Below are positions 2 through 8,148 of a stretch of DNA of 9,227 nucleotides, one piece after another. The translations under genes and the position numbers were made by a program. This DNA is from Eggerthellaceae bacterium. Lineage in GTDB: Bacteria; Actinomycetota; Coriobacteriia; Coriobacteriales; Eggerthellaceae. The stretch lies in contig JAFUCW010000224.1 of NCBI GenBank assembly GCA_017459485.1, forward strand, positions 1 through 9,227, given 5' to 3'. The stretch's first letter is position 1; the number at the start of each line of letters is the position of its first letter. The notes below the pieces were generated by a model. The model was not told the origin of the DNA and did not search any database. It saw only the letters and a program-made list of their open reading frames with translations.

Positions 2-1003
2 GCCCCGCGTGCAGCATACAGCGCCATTCGCGCTCACTGTGTTGAGTCGATAGGGCTTGTCAGCGTGGCTGGAAACAAGGCTTTGATGCAGAAGGCGGGC
101 TACGTCTTCGAGCGTCGCCTCAGAGATAAGGCCCAGTCGGGCACGGTTCGGCATACTGACGCATCGGAACTCAACGCACTCGACACAATTGATATCGAAG
201 TAAAGGCATCAAACCGAGATTTGCACGACGCCTGCAACAACCAGCTTTACAAGATTGCTAATAGCACGGGAATGGGGTACTCGGACCTCGGCAAGATCTT
301 CCGCAGGCTTTTCTTGAAAGGCTCTTCGGACAAAAAGAGCGGCGACGTGAAGCTGCTCTCGCTCGAGCAGCCCGACTACTATGCTTTCGTCGCGAACAAT
401 GCTGAGTTGCTGAAGGAGGCGGTCCGAGATGCGGTCTCTAACAATCTTCCCGAAAACCAGCGTCTGCTGGCGCCGACACGGGAGAAGACGTTCCGCTTGC
501 CGCAGGAGGTGAAATTCAAGTATGACGCCTCCGAGAAGGACCAGTCGCTAGTGGATAAAAACGTGTACGACGGCTATCGGGCCTCTGCCTGTCCCCGGTC
601 CGATGGGGAGAAACGTTTCGAAGAATTCTGCCAGTCGTCCCCTCGGGTTAAGTGGTTCTACAAGAACGGTGACAAAGGAAGCGAGTATTTCTCTATCGTC
701 TACTTAGACAACGCAGGTCGAGATCCCCTATTCTTCCCTGATTACATCTTGGAAGATAGCGAAGGTACGATTTGGATCATCGAGGCCAAGGGCGGCCAGA
801 AGAAGTCAGGCGAGAGCGAGAACATAGACCGGTTCGCTGGGAAGAAGTTCGATGCGCTGCAGTCCTACATCGGGCGTCATCCGGGTCTGAAGATGGGCTT
901 CGTCCGCTATGACCAGAAGAGCCAGCGCCTGTGCATAAACACCGAGCAGTACACAGAAGACCTCGACACGTTCTTCTGGAAGCTGCTGAAGGACGTACTG
1001 TAA
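2..1003 (+). CDS. C-terminal part of a type III restriction-like helicase-nuclease (5' end outside window)
   Basis: The frame is open from base 2 with no stop before the stop codon at 1001-1003, so this is the tail of a longer gene. A GTG at 65 is the first start-like codon inside the window, but the reading frame upstream of it is intact, so I do not treat it as the real start. Numbering from that GTG, residues 180-245 look like a PD-(D/E)XK nuclease: a helix containing E182 and E186, V-K-W-F-Y-K-N-G near 195-202, then PD at 225-226 and E240-A-K242 on the next strands. This arrangement is typical of the C-terminal endonuclease domain of type III Res subunits and related DEAD/DEAH helicase-nucleases, in which an N-terminal helicase translocates on DNA and this domain cuts. 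No helicase motif is visible, because that part lies left of the window. It is the first gene of a plus-strand cluster, 55 bases before a DUF262 gene. Which helicase subfamily it belongs to cannot be decided from the tail. Confidence 0.8.
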   Translation, partial: APRAAYSAIRAHCVESIGLVSVAGNKALMQKAGYVFERRLRDKAQSGTVRHTDASELNALDTIDIEVKASNRDLHDACNNQLYKIANSTGMGYSDLGKIFRRLFLKGSSDKKSGDVKLLSLEQPDYYAFVANNAELLKEAVRDAVSNNLPENQRLLAPTREKTFRLPQEVKFKYDASEKDQSLVDKNVYDGYRASACPRSDGEKRFEEFCQSSPRVKWFYKNGDKGSEYFSIVYLDNAGRDPLFFPDYILEDSEGTIWIIEAKGGQKKSGESENIDRFAGKKFDALQSYIGRHPGLKMGFVRYDQKSQRLCINTEQYTEDLDTFFWKLLKDVL

Positions 1004-1044
1004 GGCGAGCGCCTTCTGCAAGGAAGCGCATTGTCGATAGTTCG

Positions 1045-1052
1045 AAGGGGAG
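1045..1052 (+). promoter_or_regulatory. Ribosome binding site of the DUF262 gene
   Basis: AAGGGGAG ends six bases before the ATG at 1059 and fixes that start. No promoter is evident in the 55-base gap, so the gene is probably read from upstream. Confidence 0.7.
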
Positions 1053-1058
1053 CGAATC

Positions 1059-2897
1059 ATGGGCTCAACTTTTCAATCAAACGACACCTCGATTTCCGAG
1101 ATTCTTGGCCAGATAGACAAAGGGCTAGTACAGCTTCCCGACTTCCAGCGGGGATGGGTTTGGGATGACTACAGGATTCGAGCGCTCATTGCAAGCATCA
1201 TGAACTCCTACCCCGTCGGCGCCCTCATGTTCTTGAAGTATGGCGGCGACACTGTCCGCTTCCGAAGGCGGCTGTTTACGGGGGCGACGAATGACGCCAC
1301 CCCAGACTCTCTTGTCCTGGATGGGCAGCAGCGACTAACTTCTATATACAACGCGATGTACTGCACGACTCCCGTGCCGACGAAAACGGAGAAAGGCCAG
1401 GAGACAAAGCGGTACTACTATCTCGACATCAGAAAATGCCTGGACGGGGAAACCGATACCGTCGATGCAATCCTTTCAATTCCCGACGGCAGGCAAATCA
1501 AGTCGAACTTCGGCCGCGATATAGATCTTGACCTATCCAGCCGTGAAAGGGAATTCAAGGAGTTGATGTTCCCCTTGAGCATCGTGTTCAACACGGCCGA
1601 ATGGTTGTCCTGGACCAACGGGTGCAAGCAGCACTACGGCTACGGGGACGCCGAGAAAGCCGAACTCATCGACAAGTTCATATCGAAGGTTCTCGTCAGC
1701 ATTCAGAACTATAAGGTTCCAGTCATCGCAGTGGACAAGGAAACCCCGAAGGAGGCCGTGTGCCAGGTCTTCGAGAACGTCAATACGGGAGGCGTGTCTC
1801 TCACCGTGTTCGAGCTGGTGACCGCATCGTTTGCGGCCGACAACTACCCGCTTAGGGAAGACTGGGAGGGTGATGAAAAGACGGGTGTGCTTGGCAGATC
1901 TAGTAGGATGATTGACGGATCTCCCCTTCTGGAGGACGTGACGGCTACAGACTTCCTTACGTCATTAGCGCTTGTTTCGAGGTATTGGGCATGGAAAGAC
2001 GGCGGCCTAGCGGTGAGCTGCAAAAAGAAAGACGTTCTATCGCTAACGCTTGCCGAGTATAAGAAGTACGCTGATGCCCTTGAGGCGGGCTTCGTGCAGG
2101 CAGCGCATTTCTTGGGCGAGCAGCACATCTACTCAACCAACGACACGCCTTACTCTACCCAGCTGATTCCTCTTTCGGCACTTTGCACAATCCTGGGCAA
2201 CCGGGCGCATGACTCCGAGGTTCGCAAGAAGCTTTCTCGCTGGTACTGGTGTGGGGTATTCGGGGAAATGTACGGAGGTGCTAACGAGACAAGGTACGCA
2301 AACGATGTGACGGGCGTAATGGCTTGGGTTGACGGCTCCACCGACGAGCCAGACACTGTGGCAAGGGCGTACTTCCATCCGACCAGACTTCTAACGTTGC
2401 AAAGCAGGCAAAGTGCGGCCTACAAGGGCGTGATGGCGCTAATACTGCAGCAGGGGGCAGTTGACTTCATGAGTGGCGCTGCGATGGATTTCGCCTACTA
2501 CAACAACAACCCAGTCGACATACACCACGTCTTTCCTAAAGACTACTGCAACAGGCAGGGACATCCGAAAAGGAAATGGAACTCCGTTGTGAACAAGACG
2601 CCAATTGCAGCTCGAACAAACAGGGTGCTGAAGGGAGACGCCCCTAGCTGCTATGCCGCAAGGATAGAAAGGGATGGGCACGTAAGCCCTGAAGACCTCG
2701 ACTCCTACGTTGCTACGCATGTTATCGACGTAGCGCTGTTTCGCTCCGACTCTTTCGACGAGTACTTTGTCGAGAGGGCGAAAGGTCTGCTGACGCTAAT
2801 ATCATCCTCGATGGGCAAGGCGATAACGAATCTCGACAGTGACGAGATCATCGATGGCTTCGGCGCACCACTGACTCAGCAGGATGGGGTTCGGTAA
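1059..2897 (+). CDS. Single-chain GmrSD-like protein: DUF262 (ParB/DndB-like) NTPase plus C-terminal DUF1524 HNH nuclease
   Basis: This 612-residue protein has both halves of the GmrS/GmrD type IV restriction family fused in one chain. The N-terminal DUF262 domain shows LPDFQRGWVW (26-35), the DGQQR signature (88-92) that belongs to the ParB-like nucleotide-handling site, and FENVNTGGVSLTVFEL (238-253). The C-terminal DUF1524 domain shows DIHHVFP (487-493), the HNH metal site, followed by N508, N512 and N521, the spaced asparagines usual in this family. All recognisable catalytic positions are present, so it should be active. Characterised members cleave modified (e.g. glucosylated or hydroxymethylated) phage DNA using NTPs; others act as phosphorothioate-sensing or broader anti-phage proteins, so the substrate here is not known. 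The start is set by a good ribosome binding site. It sits between a restriction-type nuclease and a HEPN-like protein. Codon use includes AGA, AGG and ATA codons that are scarce in the GC-rich genes at the right end. Confidence 0.9.
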   Translation: MGSTFQSNDTSISEILGQIDKGLVQLPDFQRGWVWDDYRIRALIASIMNSYPVGALMFLKYGGDTVRFRRRLFTGATNDATPDSLVLDGQQRLTSIYNAMYCTTPVPTKTEKGQETKRYYYLDIRKCLDGETDTVDAILSIPDGRQIKSNFGRDIDLDLSSREREFKELMFPLSIVFNTAEWLSWTNGCKQHYGYGDAEKAELIDKFISKVLVSIQNYKVPVIAVDKETPKEAVCQVFENVNTGGVSLTVFELVTASFAADNYPLREDWEGDEKTGVLGRSSRMIDGSPLLEDVTATDFLTSLALVSRYWAWKDGGLAVSCKKKDVLSLTLAEYKKYADALEAGFVQAAHFLGEQHIYSTNDTPYSTQLIPLSALCTILGNRAHDSEVRKKLSRWYWCGVFGEMYGGANETRYANDVTGVMAWVDGSTDEPDTVARAYFHPTRLLTLQSRQSAAYKGVMALILQQGAVDFMSGAAMDFAYYNNNPVDIHHVFPKDYCNRQGHPKRKWNSVVNKTPIAARTNRVLKGDAPSCYAARIERDGHVSPEDLDSYVATHVIDVALFRSDSFDEYFVERAKGLLTLISSSMGKAITNLDSDEIIDGFGAPLTQQDGVR

Positions 2898-2899
2898 GT

Positions 2900-3880
2900 T
2901 TGGGAGAATCTGTCGATAGTGGTGAGATGCATGTCGATGGGCGGGGGTCTGAACTCGCCGATGCCCTTCCCGTGGCTCAGATTGCAGAAACAGTTTACAG
3001 CTTCGGGTCGTTGATCCAGCATGTTGACGACATAGCCAACAAGATGGCATCTAAGAGTATCGAGGCTTCTCAGGTTGGGAAGGCTCTTCAAGGCTTTCGG
3101 CTTTCAATTGATGCAACAAGCACGATCTACGACAATCTTCCGCGCGTGAGTCTGAACTTGGACATTTTTGCCAGCGCGCTCTCTGAGGTCGTTCGTGGCA
3201 TGGAAGTTGCGCCAGCGGCACTCGAGCGGCTTTCTAGTTACTTTGACCTAGCTTTCGAATCTCTTGCGTCCAGCTTTCCTGAAGTTGACTGGCGGGCTTT
3301 GAGGAACGGTCACAGAATGTGGGGGAAGTATGGCTGGGTCGTTTGCGACGGCTTCCCTGTCTCGTACGTCTCCGACCCTCCCCAATCCTTGAATGAAGCC
3401 AATGCTCTAGCAATGAAAGTGATGCGCAGTGCACAACTTGAGGAGATGTTCGACGAGCTTCTGGAGAGCATCCCCAAGGCGAAGGATGCAAAAGAGGCTA
3501 TCGTCCTGTACAGAGAGAGGCGTTATAAACCCTGTGCCATGATGCTCTTTTCGCTCATAGATTGCGAGCTCTACAAAGAAGATTGGCGCATGTACGGCCG
3601 CGAAGGAAAGGGGAACCCATCGCGGCCGCTGAATGCAATGCGCCAAACAGAAGATGTCAGCTCCACGTTCGCGCTGAGCGCAGAGGGCGCGTTCCATGCT
3701 CAACAGTGTTTTTACAAAAGCGGCGGAGGGGCTTTCCGGAGAGAGAACGAAGGGGAGCTCAATAGGAATTTTCTTATGCACGGCATGACATACAAGCGCG
3801 TAACCAGGCAGTCGTGCACCAAGCTGTTCGCATTGCTCAATTGCATCTGCAGGCTGAAAATGCGGCGCGGGAGCAGCTAA
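2900..3880 (+). CDS. Unrecognised protein with a C-terminal HEPN-type R-x4-H motif, putative ribonuclease/abortive-infection effector
   Basis: The protein has up to 326 residues and belongs to no family I can name with certainty. The N-terminal half (about 20-125) is predicted to be mostly helical. A middle segment has K-Y-G-W-V at 143-147, resembling a short conserved patch in some abortive-infection proteins. The C-terminal part (about 195-320) runs as helix (A-I-V-L-Y-R-E-R-R-Y, then a hydrophobic helix around 211-223), a charged loop, then E-L-N-R-N-F-L-M-H-G at 286-295, followed by a Leu-rich helix. R289 and H294 give R-x4-H with a polar residue after the Arg, the catalytic pattern of HEPN RNases. 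The first possible start is TTG at 2900, two bases after the preceding stop, with AGGATGGGG about ten bases upstream; the in-frame ATG at 2927 is the alternative, removing nine residues. The tight spacing suggests translational coupling with the DUF262 gene. The HEPN assignment is an inference from one motif and its helical setting. Confidence 0.7.
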   Translation: MGESVDSGEMHVDGRGSELADALPVAQIAETVYSFGSLIQHVDDIANKMASKSIEASQVGKALQGFRLSIDATSTIYDNLPRVSLNLDIFASALSEVVRGMEVAPAALERLSSYFDLAFESLASSFPEVDWRALRNGHRMWGKYGWVVCDGFPVSYVSDPPQSLNEANALAMKVMRSAQLEEMFDELLESIPKAKDAKEAIVLYRERRYKPCAMMLFSLIDCELYKEDWRMYGREGKGNPSRPLNAMRQTEDVSSTFALSAEGAFHAQQCFYKSGGGAFRRENEGELNRNFLMHGMTYKRVTRQSCTKLFALLNCICRLKMRRGSS

Positions 3881-3882
3881 TC

Positions 3883-6800
3883 TTACCGGCCTTTTCTGCA
3901 CAGGGGACACTTGGACCGTCCGTGGTGCCTGCGGTCAATCCGCTGCTGCCATTCGTGTCCTTTGCTACATCTCCACCAGGCTAGTTTTGAAGAGCCCGGC
4001 TTGACATCCCATGGTGTAAGATCGCCGTTCAACGTTGGATGCCACTCCGCCGCCAGCCCAGGATTAATACTGGCAAGGCTAACGCATCGAGGACAGCCGC
4101 TTCCGTACATCAGAGCTTTGTATGACGCTTGCCAAGAACCATGCTTCGGGCATTCGCACTCGATAGGGAGTCTGCTGTCAGCGTATGAGCCAACGACAAC
4201 AAAATCGCCGTTGGCATAACGCTTGTTAGCTCTCGACAGGTCTTCGAGGAATTGTTCTTGGGTCTTGCATCGCGATTTCCCCCTTTCCGCAGAAGAGCAC
4301 TTCGGGCAGCCGGCGCCATTCATGAGAGTGTTTGCCTTCGTCTGCCATCTACCGTGTTCGGGGCACTCGCACTCTATGTCGTCCTTGCTTCTCGTGTATT
4401 CGCCCACAACCACGAACTCTCCGTTTGCGTAGTGGCGATTTTTCTTGGCAAGCCTTTCCAAGAACTCGCCATGGGTAATTCGCTTTTCGCCGATCCGGCA
4501 TTTGGGACACTGGCTGGCATGGTGGATTAGGTTGCTTGGAGTCGTGGCCCATTGACCGTGCATCGGGCATAAGCAGACTATCGGTTCTGTCGACTTAGCA
4601 TAGACACCCACTACTTCGAACTCACCGTTGGCATAATGGACGTTCTTTTCTTTCAGCTCGGATATGAACTGCTCATGAGTTCGGAGTTGCGAATGGGCGC
4701 TTTTGCGTTTGGTGCCCTTTTGGGTAGCGTGAGACTTAGCTACTCCGCACTTGGGGCAACCTGTGCCACGCAATAACAAATTGGGGGTTGTTGCCCAAGC
4801 CCCATGTTCGTGGCAACGGCACTCGATCTTTGTTTTGCTGTTCACGTACTTGCCGACAACGATAAATTTTCCGTTGGCATAGTCTTGGTTTTTCTCAACG
4901 AGCTTTTCCAAGAACTCATCTTGGGTAGGCTTTACCAAACCAGCGCATTTTGGGCATCCTCCACCGAGATTGATGATCACAGCTGGTTTCGTTGACCACC
5001 CATATCCGCAAACCTTGCATCGAAACTCAACCTTGGTATTTGCATTCTTGTACTCGCCGAGTGGCTCGATGCTGGGATTCGCTTCTGCTACTTCCTCGAC
5101 GAAACGCTCCTGCGTTCTTGCAGTAGGGTCGATGAAGCCAGGGTGCCGCCTGTATTTCGGGCATCCCTTGCCCTGCCGTATCGACCCTGTTGTCGTCTTC
5201 CACTCGTGCCCACAAATCTTGCACTTCACCATCAGGGGTTTCGACGCGCCTTCGTACTCGCCGAGAACTTCGACATCGGGACTGAGTGCCGCGATTTCGG
5301 CAACAACCTCATCGTGGGTTTTCTTTATCTCGTTGGCACAGCGTGGGCAGCCTTTGCTGTTGGGTAGCGTGATTACTGTAGGGGCCCATTCGTAGCCGCA
5401 GACATTGCATCTGCAATCGACCTTGTTCTGAACTCCCGTGTATTCACCGATGACCTCGAATTGCCCTTCGGCGTAATGTGGGTTGCTCTCCGCTAGTTCC
5501 GCCTTGAATTCTTCTTCTGATTTTAGAACCGTCCGGCTCGATGCCTTGGCTCGAAGAGACTTCCATTCCCTTTCCGAGAACGACAAATCGGACTCGACCA
5601 TGGAAAGGACATCGGCGACAAGTTTCTTCAATGCGGGCTGTCCTTTTTCGCTCCACAGGTCGAAGGGGTAAACCCGTACATCTTCGCTATAGATTTCGAA
5701 CGGCTCTCGGCATTGGTCGTAAACCATAAGCAGTCTTATGCCTGCATCCCGACACCTGCGGGCTTTCTCCAGATCCTTCTCGAATCGGTTTTTGTGCCAG
5801 AACCACGATCCGTATTCGATGGCGAGATGATGGACAGGAACGTAGATGTCCAGCTCGGATCCAATGGCGGTTTTGTCTCTGTTCAGGACGGCCTCTTCGC
5901 CCAGCGACTTCTCAAGTGCAACGCTTAGAATTTGCTCGACTCTTGATGTTCCGGATCGGCTACAGCGGGGGCAGCCGGCCCCTCTCAGTAGTAAAGCTTC
6001 GGGCTTGGCCTTCCAGTTGTTATCGCAGACAAGGCAGCGACATGCTATCGGCGTTTTGCTCGATTCGTATTCGCCGGTGACTTCGAACTTTCTTGTTGCG
6101 TAATACTCGTTGTCTCGGGCGAGTTCTTCTAAGAACTGCTCATGGGTTTTTCGAGATGCCAAGCCACGACGCTTCGCCGAGCATTCTGGGCAATCGCTTC
6201 CGTTGTGAACGAGATCGTAGGCGGTTCTCGACCAGCGGTTGCCACAAACAAGGCAATGGCATTCGATATGGTTATCGACCCCATCGTACTTGCTCAAGAT
6301 TTCAAACTCCCCGTTGGCATAGTGCCGATTGCCTCTTACAAGTTCTTCGACAAACTCAGCATGGCTCTTTCTTGTTGGGCTTTTGTATCCAGGATGGTTT
6401 CGCCAGTTGCTGCAGCCTTGCCCTACGGCAAGGAGCCTTGTGCCAGTTGTAGTCCATTCGTGGTTGCAGATGGCGCAACGAACTCTTAGCGGCTGCGTCA
6501 TTTTTTCGTAGGGTGACAGCAATTTGATATCGGGGTGTTTGGCGGCAAGCTCCGATAAAAAGCTCTCGGGGTCTTTCGCTTTCGCGTCCACCCAGCCTGG
6601 ATGTCGCCGGAAGTTCGGACAACCGTGGTTTGCGAGCAAGTCAGCGGGCTGAGCATCCCAGCTGTGGTCGCAGACGAGGCAATGCGTGCGTATCCTTGTT
6701 TTCCGGTCGGTGAACGAACCGAGTATTTCTATATCGCCGTTAATGAACTGGTCGTTCTGTTTGGACAGCCTGGCAAAAAACTCTGAGTCGGTCATCCTAT

Positions 6801-7209
6801 TCGCGCACTTTGGACAACCTGAGCCATTCAGCAGCGATGACGGAGTGGTTTCCCATTTGCCATGCTTGGGGCAGCGGCAAGCAATGTGCTTTAGCGCTCC
6901 CTGGTATTCGCCAACAACCTCGAAGTCCTTGCCGGCATACCTTCTGTTCTTCATTTCGAGCTTCTCAAGGAACCTCTTATGGTCCATCCTGTTGGGACCC
7001 TTGTCGTTGCCGTCGCATTTAGGGCATCCCTGTTTTTTCAGGTGGTCTGGCCGACGTTCAAATGCGTTGCCACATCTCGAACATCGGCATTTAATCTTTG
7101 TTGTGGCGTTCTCGTATTGGCTCTCGAGAAAGAAAGCACCGGACGCAAATAACGGGTTAGATTCCGCTAGCTCCTGTATGTAACCTGCGTTGGTCTTTCT
7201 TGTGCCCAT
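3883..7209 (-). CDS. Large multi-zinc-ribbon protein with an internal Vsr/EDxHD-like endonuclease domain
   Basis: This 1108-residue protein is a chain of repeats of about 50-70 residues. Each has a helical start (F-L-E-E-L-type), a segment like Y-A-N-G-E-F-E-V-V-G-E-Y, a C-x2-C or C-x2-H pair followed by G/x-x-W, and a closing G-C-P-K-C. I count six copies before the nuclease (residues 6-417), seven after it (564-1042) and a different treble-clef finger at the end (1047-1104). Residues 421-540 read as a Vsr-like nuclease with candidate active-site residues E425, D454, E465, H472 and D498. The repeats resemble the zinc-ribbon modules (DUF723-like, C-P-x-H-G type) attached to phage and bacterial homing-type nucleases, where they bind DNA. 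The start is well defined: an in-frame TAA lies at 7237-7239 with no start codon between it and the ATG, although no clear Shine-Dalgarno is seen. Its stop lies two bases from that of the HEPN-like gene, tail to tail. Lower G+C than the right-hand genes suggests acquisition. Its role (homing, restriction or other) is not settled. Confidence 0.85.
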   Translation of the reverse strand: MGTRKTNAGYIQELAESNPLFASGAFFLESQYENATTKIKCRCSRCGNAFERRPDHLKKQGCPKCDGNDKGPNRMDHKRFLEKLEMKNRRYAGKDFEVVGEYQGALKHIACRCPKHGKWETTPSSLLNGSGCPKCANRMTDSEFFARLSKQNDQFINGDIEILGSFTDRKTRIRTHCLVCDHSWDAQPADLLANHGCPNFRRHPGWVDAKAKDPESFLSELAAKHPDIKLLSPYEKMTQPLRVRCAICNHEWTTTGTRLLAVGQGCSNWRNHPGYKSPTRKSHAEFVEELVRGNRHYANGEFEILSKYDGVDNHIECHCLVCGNRWSRTAYDLVHNGSDCPECSAKRRGLASRKTHEQFLEELARDNEYYATRKFEVTGEYESSKTPIACRCLVCDNNWKAKPEALLLRGAGCPRCSRSGTSRVEQILSVALEKSLGEEAVLNRDKTAIGSELDIYVPVHHLAIEYGSWFWHKNRFEKDLEKARRCRDAGIRLLMVYDQCREPFEIYSEDVRVYPFDLWSEKGQPALKKLVADVLSMVESDLSFSEREWKSLRAKASSRTVLKSEEEFKAELAESNPHYAEGQFEVIGEYTGVQNKVDCRCNVCGYEWAPTVITLPNSKGCPRCANEIKKTHDEVVAEIAALSPDVEVLGEYEGASKPLMVKCKICGHEWKTTTGSIRQGKGCPKYRRHPGFIDPTARTQERFVEEVAEANPSIEPLGEYKNANTKVEFRCKVCGYGWSTKPAVIINLGGGCPKCAGLVKPTQDEFLEKLVEKNQDYANGKFIVVGKYVNSKTKIECRCHEHGAWATTPNLLLRGTGCPKCGVAKSHATQKGTKRKSAHSQLRTHEQFISELKEKNVHYANGEFEVVGVYAKSTEPIVCLCPMHGQWATTPSNLIHHASQCPKCRIGEKRITHGEFLERLAKKNRHYANGEFVVVGEYTRSKDDIECECPEHGRWQTKANTLMNGAGCPKCSSAERGKSRCKTQEQFLEDLSRANKRYANGDFVVVGSYADSRLPIECECPKHGSWQASYKALMYGSGCPRCVSLASINPGLAAEWHPTLNGDLTPWDVKPGSSKLAWWRCSKGHEWQQRIDRRHHGRSKCPLCRKGR
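3898..4071 (-). other. Domain: C-terminal DUF4379-like treble-clef zinc finger
   Basis: Residues 1047-1104 differ from the other repeats. They read S-I-N-P-G-L-A-A-E-W-H-P then N-G-D-L-T-P, K-P-G-S-S, W-W-R-C, G-H-E-W and finally K-C-P-L-C, the pattern of the treble-clef family in Pfam PF14311. Ligand candidates are C1081, H1085, C1101 and C1104. In other bacterial proteins this module is often found in tandem and next to Vsr-like nuclease domains. Here a single copy caps the array. Confidence 0.75.
4084..5520 (-). repeat. Zinc-ribbon repeats R7-R13 of the large protein
   Basis: Coding repeats covering residues 564-1042. Ligand candidates are R7 C601/C604/C621/C624, R8 C663/C666/C683 plus H689 (last Cys replaced by Y686), R9 C731/C734/C752/C755, R10 C799/H802/C818/C821, R11 C881/H884/C901/C904, R12 C949/H952/C968/C971 and R13 C1020/H1023/C1039/C1042. 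R8 and R9 are short forms. R10-R13 all use the C-x2-H-G variant and are the most alike, which suggests the most recent duplications. Confidence 0.85.
5590..5949 (-). other. Domain: Vsr/EDxHD-like endonuclease inside the zinc-ribbon protein
   Basis: Residues 421-540 follow the Vsr-type layout: a first helix with E425 (S-R-V-E-Q-I-L), a strand with S-E-L-D-I-Y (D454), a second strand L-A-I-E-Y-G (E465), then W-F-W-H-K (H472) matching the G-C-F-W-H region of Vsr, a Lys/Arg-rich helix K-A-R-R-C and the strand I-R-L-L-M-V-Y-D (D498). The same pattern defines the EDxHD homing endonucleases related to I-Bth0305I. The key acidic and His positions appear intact, so activity is plausible. The fold assignment rests on motif reading only. 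Confidence 0.65.
5959..7194 (-). repeat. Zinc-ribbon repeats R1-R6 of the large protein
   Basis: Coding tandem repeats covering residues 6-417. Zinc-ligand candidates by repeat are R1 C43/C46/C62/C65, R2 C113/H116/C132/C135, R3 C177/C180/C197 plus H203, R4 C245/C248/C266 plus H272, R5 C319/C322/C340/C343 and R6 C392/C395/C413/C416. R3 and R4 lack the last Cys and instead continue with R-R/N-H-P-G-aromatic. R4 is a short version that lacks the Y-A-N-G-x-F segment. Confidence 0.85.
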
Positions 7210-7349: not shown

Positions 7350-7392
7350 AGCCCCTTCGCTTGTGGCATCAGGGTATACCGGCGAAGGGGCT
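7350..7392 (-). terminator. Distal hairpin, possible second terminator of the YraN-like gene
   Basis: Eleven perfectly complementary bases (7350-7360 and 7382-7392) enclose a 21-base loop that itself contains the palindrome GGTATACC. On the minus strand the stem is followed by only a short T run (CTTTAG), so termination would be weak. It lies about 65 bases downstream of the stop codon at 7457, behind another hairpin, and marks the point where base composition changes. A structural boundary element is an alternative reading. Confidence 0.4.
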
Positions 7393-7404
7393 AAACGTGG
7401 AAAT

Positions 7405-7435
7405 GCCCCGGCCAGGAGCGCGTCCCGGCCGGGGC
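7405..7435 (-). terminator. GC-rich hairpin just after the YraN-like gene, probable terminator
   Basis: Nine complementary bases (7405-7413 and 7427-7435, GCCCCGGCC with its complement) enclose a 13-base loop, about 20 bases after the stop at 7457 when read on the minus strand. ATTTCC follows the stem, so the U tract is short. Position and stem strength favour a terminator. Confidence 0.55.
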
Positions 7436-7456
7436 CGCTATCGCCGCTCGGAGGTC

Positions 7457-7810
7457 CTAGGCGGCGGAAAGCGCGTTGCGGTAGTGGCGAACCATTGCGC
7501 GGTCGTTGCTCAGCACCAGCATGCTCACGATGTCGAATCGGATCATGGTCTGCTCGAGACCGTCGGTCTGCGCCAGGTAGGCTGCCGCTGCCTTCTCGCA
7601 TGCTGCGCGGTCGGGCTTGTCCTCAGGGAACCCATCGCCGGCGTCTCCGAGGATGTTGCAGTTCACGAACACCAGGTCGTCCTCGTCGCGCGCGATGAAG
7701 TCCACGCTGTTCTTGCCCGACTTCCAGCCGTCTTCGACGATCTCGAACCCGCGCATTTCCAGGAACTTGCGGATGCCTGCCATCGCCTTGGTCTTGGTTG
7801 CCTTGTTCAT
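7457..7810 (-). CDS. YraN-like (UPF0102-type) small protein with degenerate nuclease site
   Basis: The frame could run further upstream to 8101, but a near-perfect ribosome binding site places the start at the ATG at 7808-7810, giving 117 residues, the usual size of the YraN family. The sequence follows that family: an N-terminal helix ending in R-G-F-E-I-V (20-25), a strand with S-V-D-F-I-A (35-40; D37 matches the conserved Asp), D-L-V-F-V-N-C-N (45-52), then A-A-A-A-Y-L (74-79) and R-F-D-I-V (91-95). In canonical members the second strand reads F-V-E-V-K and supplies the catalytic Glu and Lys; here both are Asn (N50 and N52). The fold is probably PD-(D/E)XK-like but inactive, perhaps a binding protein. 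YraN itself has no settled function. The gene stands alone on the minus strand, with terminator-like hairpins behind it and high G+C like its right-hand neighbours. Confidence 0.75.
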   Translation of the reverse strand: MNKATKTKAMAGIRKFLEMRGFEIVEDGWKSGKNSVDFIARDEDDLVFVNCNILGDAGDGFPEDKPDRAACEKAAAAYLAQTDGLEQTMIRFDIVSMLVLSNDRAMVRHYRNALSAA

Positions 7811-7816
7811 TTGTGA

Positions 7817-7824
7817 CCTCCTTT
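7817..7824 (-). promoter_or_regulatory. Strong ribosome binding site that sets the start of the YraN-like gene
   Basis: On the minus strand this reads AAAGGAGG, six bases before the ATG at 7810. The longer open frame upstream encodes a Pro/Arg-rich stretch without family resemblance and is not supported. Confidence 0.85.
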
Positions 7825-8058
7825 GGTTGGTGGCCGCCCCCTGCGGGCTGGCCTTGTGGCTTCGCGGCCATCGAGGTTCCCGGAGGCTGCAAGGGGGGAA
7901 TGCGAAAACCCGGAGGGCTTGAGTTTTTGGCCATGGTCTTGGGTGGATAGCCGAAAAGTTTTTCGCGGCCCTTGCGGCCTGTTGAGGGGTTCTCGATGAA
8001 GCTGCGGAAGGCTCAAGGCGGGACCGCGGGGTGGTGGGCGCATGTCCAGGAGGGCGGT

Positions 8059-8088
8059 AAGGCAACCAAGGCCAAGGCGACGGCGGGA
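8059..8088 (+). repeat. Inverted copy of the first codons of the YraN-like gene
   Basis: These 30 bases match the minus strand of 7775-7804 (codons 3-12 of the YraN-like gene) at 26 positions, with the four differences falling in codons 5, 8, 10 and 11 of that stretch's gene numbering or thereabouts. They encode K-A-T-K-A-K-A-T-A-G against K-A-T-K-T-K-A-M-A-G. AGGAGG precedes the copy at 8048-8053, but there is no ATG, and the frame stops at a TGA at 8101-8103. It looks like a decayed gene start or a small inverted duplication. Confidence 0.5.
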
Positions 8089-8148
8089 CGTGCCCATGCA
8101 TGAGCAGGGAATCCGCGAGGACGGTAAAATGGTTGCGGAAAGGAAAGC

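Follow-up and report, generated by a model that had tools for sequence, protein, structure and literature searches.

What might a bacterium do with a nuclease that is built into the middle of a long array of zinc-ribbon modules? The question is raised by an open reading frame (ORF) on contig JAFUCW010000224.1 of an Eggerthellaceae bacterium (assembly GCA_017459485.1, 72% complete, gene matched once there), which we analyzed within a stretch of 9,227 nucleotides, hereafter the window. An earlier note made from the sequence alone had described this gene as a Vsr-like nuclease flanked by six and seven zinc ribbons and had proposed a modular DNA- or RNA-reading surface. The observation is confirmed, as the gene is real and its modules lie far above chance in Pfam, while the interpretation is partly supported. 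Our tentative answer, to which we give a probability of roughly 45%, is that the single-chain array of 13 modules around a Vsr/EDxHD-type nuclease forms a sequence-specific DNA endonuclease, probably directed against invading or rival mobile DNA.

The 13 modules are of one type with about 60-65 residues and two metal-knuckle motifs each, and a separate module of a different kind (DUF4379, residues 1052-1106) follows module 13, exactly where a treble-clef finger had been foreseen (Table 1). Pfam reports DUF4379 (E 7.9e-51, 10 stretches), CapR (E 1.2e-44, 10 stretches) and DUF723 (E 2.3e-19, five stretches) for the whole protein and, together with parsing by hidden Markov models (HMMs), agrees with the order six, nuclease, seven. 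The first knuckle reads CxxC in modules 1 and 3-9 and CxxH in modules 2 and 10-13. The second is C-x5-H instead of CPxC in modules 3, 4 and 8 (CPNFRRHPG, CSNWRNHPG and CPKYRRHPG), the ends of which were lengthened by hand to take in the His. This variant knuckle occurs at 16 sites in 7 of 121 parsed proteins (the window protein, P0001, plus 120 listed homologues), namely in P0001, the identical P0002 and relatives at 52-69% identity. Modules are 22-55% identical to each other, with modules 2 and 10-13, all CxxH, among the most alike, and their net charge (K+R-D-E) runs from -4 to +6, with +29 for the full protein. The knuckle ligands suggest that the modules bind metal, presumably zinc, and the module fold is a predicted one. 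By sequence, the PDB yielded mt-SAF33 (DUF4379; E 3.3e-4) and two weak matches; the closest solved relatives of the module fold are proteins of mitoribosome complexes, so that RNA reading stays alive at low weight.

Table 1. Coordinates of the features in the window (res, residues of the array nuclease; MAG, metagenome-assembled genome)
Feature	Position	Strand	Remarks
Array nuclease gene, whole	3883..7209	minus	ORF, ATG start, 1108 aa; single match in own assembly
Module 1, res 4-65	7015..7200	minus	CxxC / CPxC
Module 2, res 74-136	6802..6990	minus	CxxH / CPxC
Module 3, res 138-206	6592..6798	minus	CxxC / C-x5-H variant knuckle
Module 4, res 212-275	6385..6576	minus	CxxC / C-x5-H variant knuckle
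Module 5, res 280-344	6178..6372	minus	CxxC / CPxC
Module 6, res 353-417	5959..6153	minus	CxxC / CPxC; within model m1e287ce3ca0c
Vsr/EDxHD-like nuclease, res 419-531	5617..5955	minus	HMM and predicted fold; E425, D454, E465, H472, D479
Module 7, res 563-625	5335..5523	minus	CxxC / CPxC; V612A in sister MAG, E627K just behind
Module 8, res 629-692	5134..5325	minus	CxxC / C-x5-H variant knuckle
Module 9, res 698-756	4942..5118	minus	CxxC / CPxC; 76-81% identical in P0003-P0006
Module 10, res 761-821	4747..4929	minus	CxxH / CPxC
Module 11, res 843-905	4495..4683	minus	CxxH / CPxC
Module 12, res 910-972	4294..4482	minus	CxxH / CPxC
Module 13, res 982-1042	4084..4266	minus	CxxH / CPxC
C-terminal DUF4379, res 1052-1106	3892..4056	minus	Pfam
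GmrSD_N (DUF262) protein	1059..2897	plus	Pfam E 5.6e-32; same low-GC stretch
Point where two dispersed copies cease to match the upstream YraN-like cassette	7351..7352	none	low-GC stretch starts nearby

The segment between the two arms is predicted to adopt the Vsr/I-Bth0305I nuclease fold. Its bounds by HMM are residues 419-531 instead of 421-540 as first read, and the predicted fold and conserved residues bear out the proposed relation to Vsr/EDxHD enzymes. The full set of acidic and His residues is present, and we take these to be the E-D-xH-D residues of an I-Bth0305I-type catalytic fold, mapped by sequence order rather than residue by residue on PDB 3r3p, a structure that the profile of alignment A1 reached at E 0.6 only. 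Structural matches at lower Z comprise McrC, restriction enzymes and a Holliday-junction enzyme, and the nuclease part is matched by PHROG 3339, a phage family named homing endonuclease (E 1.3e-14). The T5orf172 nuclease domain was not found in the protein by Pfam at E up to 1, and PADLOC returned no described defence family for the array nuclease at E up to 0.1. Rfam gave no intron match above the gathering score in the window or in locus L002; encoding within a group I or II intron is optional for EDxHD homing endonucleases, of which free-standing members exist.

Is such an architecture exceptional? A search over 5.8 billion proteins gave 298 matches, the best 120 of which are listed; it is limited to lengths between 0.55 and 1.75 times that of the query, and short relatives are therefore under-represented in the counts. 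Using HMMs built from the window protein and iterated on the homologues, counting DUF4379 as a module and dropping P0002, we found the nuclease in 112 of 120 proteins. Among these listed homologues, modules reside on both sides of it in 105, only before it in 6 and only after it in 1, which makes a central nuclease the norm in long members. The median number of modules is 8, and 5 of the 112 have at least 13. Uniqueness of either trait is hereby ruled out, and the notion that 13 modules around a nuclease are unusual holds in comparison with published phage proteins and their three to five modules (PMC12350094; this and the other papers are cited for those parts of their text that were accessible), and fails among the long homologues listed. 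A sample of 397 Lachnospiraceae genomes had 29 matches in 22 genomes, and in 20 regions from it we counted 24 ORFs with the nuclease, of which 17 have modules before and after it, three have it at the C-terminus (all in L144) and four are without detected modules. Four phage or viral relatives (L045, L046, L047 and L010) have the modules first and the nuclease last, L044 has six modules with the nuclease not detected, L050 consists of the nuclease alone, and in gp19 of Klebsiella phage KpV52 and in F-LimX some 170 residues follow the nuclease, with no modules detected there. An internal nuclease in bacterial genomes as opposed to a C-terminal one in phages appears as a trend in these small samples. 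The whole protein is matched by 985 of 50,697 phage records, one over at least 80% of the length, and the nuclease part by 214 at E up to 1e-3; for 72,556 plasmids the numbers are 117 and 2. Viral contigs contain one relative according to a single-protein scan and none according to a scan with alignment A1. Some further arrays may be mentioned here. P0007 (1870 aa) features 25 detected modules and PF00226, presumably DnaJ, with the nuclease not detected. Genome G149, the source of locus L003, has three ORFs with DUF4379-type array matches, G050 has a single 794-aa frame with eight, and some DUF4379-type stretches in genomes such as these hold an internal nuclease-like match.

A position-specific reader would show conservation of module residues by address, i.e. 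by the place of a module in the chain. When we compared the repeats of homologues, module order beside the nuclease proved to be retained in close relatives while the chain ends vary: P0003 (69% identical) is colinear across all 14 modules, P0004-P0006 (54-55%) follow the order of modules 1-9 and then add one weakly matching module, and P0009 has modules 4-6, nuclease and modules 7-9. For each of 59 module columns, identity between the modules of one protein was then set against identity at the same address in relatives. Columns 44, 26, 46, 47, 28 and 27 were chosen in the P0001 clade as the top six of the 30 columns that vary between modules. Outside this clade they beat the bottom six in same-address conservation in 11 of 11 computable clusters (13 were taken, two gave no computable value), with a rank correlation of 0.67 (p 6e-5). 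Similarity between modules is also somewhat higher in the chosen columns (0.22-0.33 versus 0.11-0.24), and the same-address excess is gone in the two clusters at about 40% identity. In a predicted model of modules 7-9 (mean local confidence pLDDT 87.8), columns 46-51 of module 7 make up a short helix that follows the knuckle strands, and a loop holds columns 26-29; the global score (pTM 0.50) leaves the arrangement of the modules to each other uncertain. Retained order, variable ends and address-wise conserved columns lend indirect support, at the level of sequence comparison, to the modular recognition suggested earlier, and contacts between modules are a possible alternative cause of the conservation.

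Several observations concern the mobility of the gene. Any match was present in 8 of 149 close genomes, own genome included, and the gene itself in two, the own genome and G001, so that its distribution among relatives of the window organism is patchy. It resides in a low-GC (guanine plus cytosine) stretch of 53% GC, next to about 61% just upstream. Empty sites were sought for this gene and for that of L003: the neighbour of the window gene on the low-GC side occurs in the own genome and G001 only, out of 41 searched, its other flank is a dispersed repeat, and the neighbour gene in L003 has its closest relative at just 42% identity. The clearest case is Eggerthellaceae genome G055, where a 3,715-bp insert (L104 2753-6467) with about 50% GC in surroundings of 64-74% consists of a YhcG-type gene and a relative that is split into overlapping ORFs of 143 and 566 aa. 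The flanks of the insert are present in 9 of 9 genomes of the genus and lie 19-247 bp apart in all 8 others, which lack the insert; the empty sites were inspected base by base in four genomes. A 9-bp direct repeat, CTATTGGTT, is found at each end. By eye, the flanking genes resemble transketolase and prfB, and no integrase was seen among the ORFs of the insert. In phages, an insertion of 1,451 bp after the gene for the major head protein consists of the KpV52 gene with three detected modules and the nuclease; both related phages checked lack it. Another phage relative, with a terminase fragment on either side, carries an annotation as group I intron-associated.

Gene neighbourhoods may contribute to answering the question of what such a protein is used for. 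For 16 Lachnospiraceae loci we scanned 81 of the 96 neighbours within three ORFs, taken as the longest non-overlapping ORFs instead of annotated genes; left out were ten of L144, which was assumed to be phage-like, and L142:6043-6356, L153:1-4973, L154:948-4463, L154:13318-14142 and L155:4333-4635. The 81 neighbours matched 88 PADLOC models at E 1e-10, the best 25 of which include type III restriction/methylation, type IV restriction, AbiEi, AbiTii and several candidate systems, and in PHROG and Pfam they matched mobile-element genes (integrase, invertase, resolvase, Mob_Pre) and housekeeping genes. Control ORFs matched seven models, mostly generic and including one type II methyltransferase. 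For the control, five ORFs were taken from the centre of almost every one of 17 regions, 84 in total, of which the last three were dropped to leave 81. Fourteen of these regions share contigs with tested loci, mostly tens of kb off and in G304 only about 13 kb; three (G440, G533 and G504) stem from genomes whose own locus lay outside the test set, and the tested loci L142 and L157 on short contigs have no control. As the tallies count models and not proteins, the contrast of 88 to 7 is strong but is no calibrated enrichment. Of ten neighbours scanned singly, four matched defence models (type III restriction in L154, PDC-S41 in L152, LmuA in L156 with E 7e-12 and an exonuclease-like PDC-S48 in L142), one a generic model (mad8) and five none. 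In the contig of the window, a tyrosine integrase and an AAA_15/AAA_21 ATPase gene with an HNH_5-like gene (E 1.1e-5, under the cut-off of Pfam) follow about 1-5 kb past the window, and it is possible that the latter two represent a defence pair. Location among defence genes is hence found for the window's contig and, by a model tally with an imperfect control, for the Lachnospiraceae relatives.

Proteins of this kind are already partly in print. CapR/DUF4379/DUF723 modules combined with EDxHD/Vsr domains have been reported from phage group II introns; four such proteins with three to five modules and a C-terminal nuclease reside within introns of phage genes, and the profiles used return thousands of matches, many of them unannotated (PMC12350094). 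The window protein shares the module families and the nuclease relation in one chain, and its several CapR/DUF723/DUF4379 modules and EDxHD/Vsr-like domain of predicted fold place it in the array-nuclease outgroup of that paper. It differs in having 13 modules, an internal nuclease, no intron found and a bacterial low-GC setting; the C-terminal nuclease with three to five modules is typical there without being defining. The target of the I-Bth0305I dimer (PDB 3r3p) is close to 60 bp long (PMC3943268). The difference from the window protein lies in the DNA-binding region, as no comparable module array is known to us from I-Bth0305I. T5orf172 homing endonucleases likewise carry arrays of CapR modules, six repeats in one phage protein, with in-frame loss of repeats, but have another nuclease domain that lies opposite the binding domains (PMC10448857). 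To the Hef-like, free-standing phage endonuclease F-LimX (PMC3296691) and to KpV52 gp19 the likeness resides in the nuclease, which our HMM matches with E 4e-21 and 4e-22, while none and three modules, respectively, were detected in these proteins of phage genomes. A precedent for a homing-type nuclease turned on rival mobile DNA is Odn of phage ICP1, an anti-satellite nuclease derived from a homing endonuclease, albeit with a different nuclease and reader (T5orf172 and RepA_N; PMC10448857). No description of bacterial members with an internal nuclease or of their defence-type neighbourhoods was found in the literature covered, to which subscription journals mostly do not belong. New here are the internal nuclease in bacterial members, the defence-rich neighbourhoods, the 3.7-kb insertion and the address-wise conserved module positions.

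The most serious competitor of an interference nuclease, in our view somewhat unlikely, is homing by a free-standing endonuclease, with a selfish gene that gets itself copied into the break it makes in the allele lacking it. In that case the array would serve a very long and rare target, and the defence genes would be chance company in a mobile region. The PHROG 3339 match, the phage relative between terminase fragments, the KpV52 insertion and the presence of a bacterial relative in one of nine genomes, with the flanks adjacent in the other eight, all agree with homing, and so does the split G055 copy, since decaying homing genes often become split. The second gene and the 9-bp end repeat of the G055 insert are, however, unexpected from simple homing into a break, an intron match is missing from the window and L002, and the genes near relatives are rich in defence matches. 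Homing also depends on frequent encounters between filled and empty alleles, and chromosomes offer few of these. Because of the neighbourhoods and this rarity of opportunities we favour interference, with homing as the ancestry: a phage homing endonuclease would have had its reader lengthened at the ends by module duplication and would then have become cargo of integrative islands.

It is improbable that the protein serves the island as a structure-specific or low-specificity nuclease, acting in recombination or degradation, with an array that merely adds affinity. Mixed module charges are compatible with a grip on the backbone and the lower-Z matches to McrC, restriction enzymes and a Holliday-junction enzyme fit, but position-specific conservation of otherwise variable residues is not expected for non-specific gripping. 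Even less credit is due to an RNA-directed protein, the modules of which would read RNA while the Vsr-like domain would have RNA as its substrate or play a structural part. Since both DNA and RNA are bound by zinc ribbons and treble clefs, the fold is not decisive; the nuclease has retained the complete acidic and His set, and Vsr/EDxHD families cut DNA (PMC3943268). We infer that the substrate is DNA rather than RNA, that the modules read its sequence, and that the protein cleaves it and acts in interference; DNA reading is suggested by the family (PMC10448857, PMC12350094) and by the address-like conservation. In the sequence-specific endonuclease that we prefer, the modules would read DNA sequence and the two arms would grip a long target, setting the cut between them, with invading or rival mobile DNA as the probable target. 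A bolder and rather doubtful extension is a protein-only, address-coded defence. Module addresses would lie in the loop (columns 26-28) and the knuckle helix (columns 44-48), the arms would sum to a target of dozens of bp, targets would evolve by gain, loss and editing of end modules, and specific mobile elements would be cut from within defence islands as by a natural TALE-nuclease. If the modules do read DNA singly, the family would be a natural, evolving modular reader with a built-in cutter, beyond TALE, zinc-finger and CRISPR systems, and the variable module positions mark the first residues of interest for DNA reading. Should the bacterial members serve in defence, a lineage known until now as phage homing genes would have turned into a sequence-specific immune nuclease.

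Several minor features of the locus and its relatives remain to be reported. GmrSD_N adjoins the window gene and that of L004, but was rejected as a constant partner as it lies within 10 kb on the contig in 0 of 29 Lachnospiraceae matches, the nearest being 11 kb away (G151). The ORF at 65-1003 of the window shows a PD-(D/E)xK-like motif by eye and has no Pfam match. In L002, the AAA_15/AAA_21 ATPase gene adjoins the HNH_5-like gene (981-3158 and 3328-4944) near the tyrosine integrase, and the pair has its best PADLOC scores to AriA, and also to PtuA and GajA. A YhcG gene is also found among the 81 scanned Lachnospiraceae neighbours. The full window recurs with 99.95% identity in an Eggerthellaceae MAG obtained from roe deer jejunum (contig JAFUCE010000004.1), which is genome G001 as judged by position. 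Five of 9,227 bases differ, two of them (window 5331 and 5375) in the array nuclease gene; both are missense and lead to V612A (module 7, column 46) and E627K (immediately after this module). Upstream lies a YraN-like gene that belongs to a dispersed repeat: its three copies (window 7351-8101, L077 6412-7141 and L078 2602-3269) are 80-82% alike, one of them inverted and 12 kb off. Their homologies end at one common point directly behind a terminator-like hairpin, the stem of which, by eye, varies by one base change that is matched on the other side.

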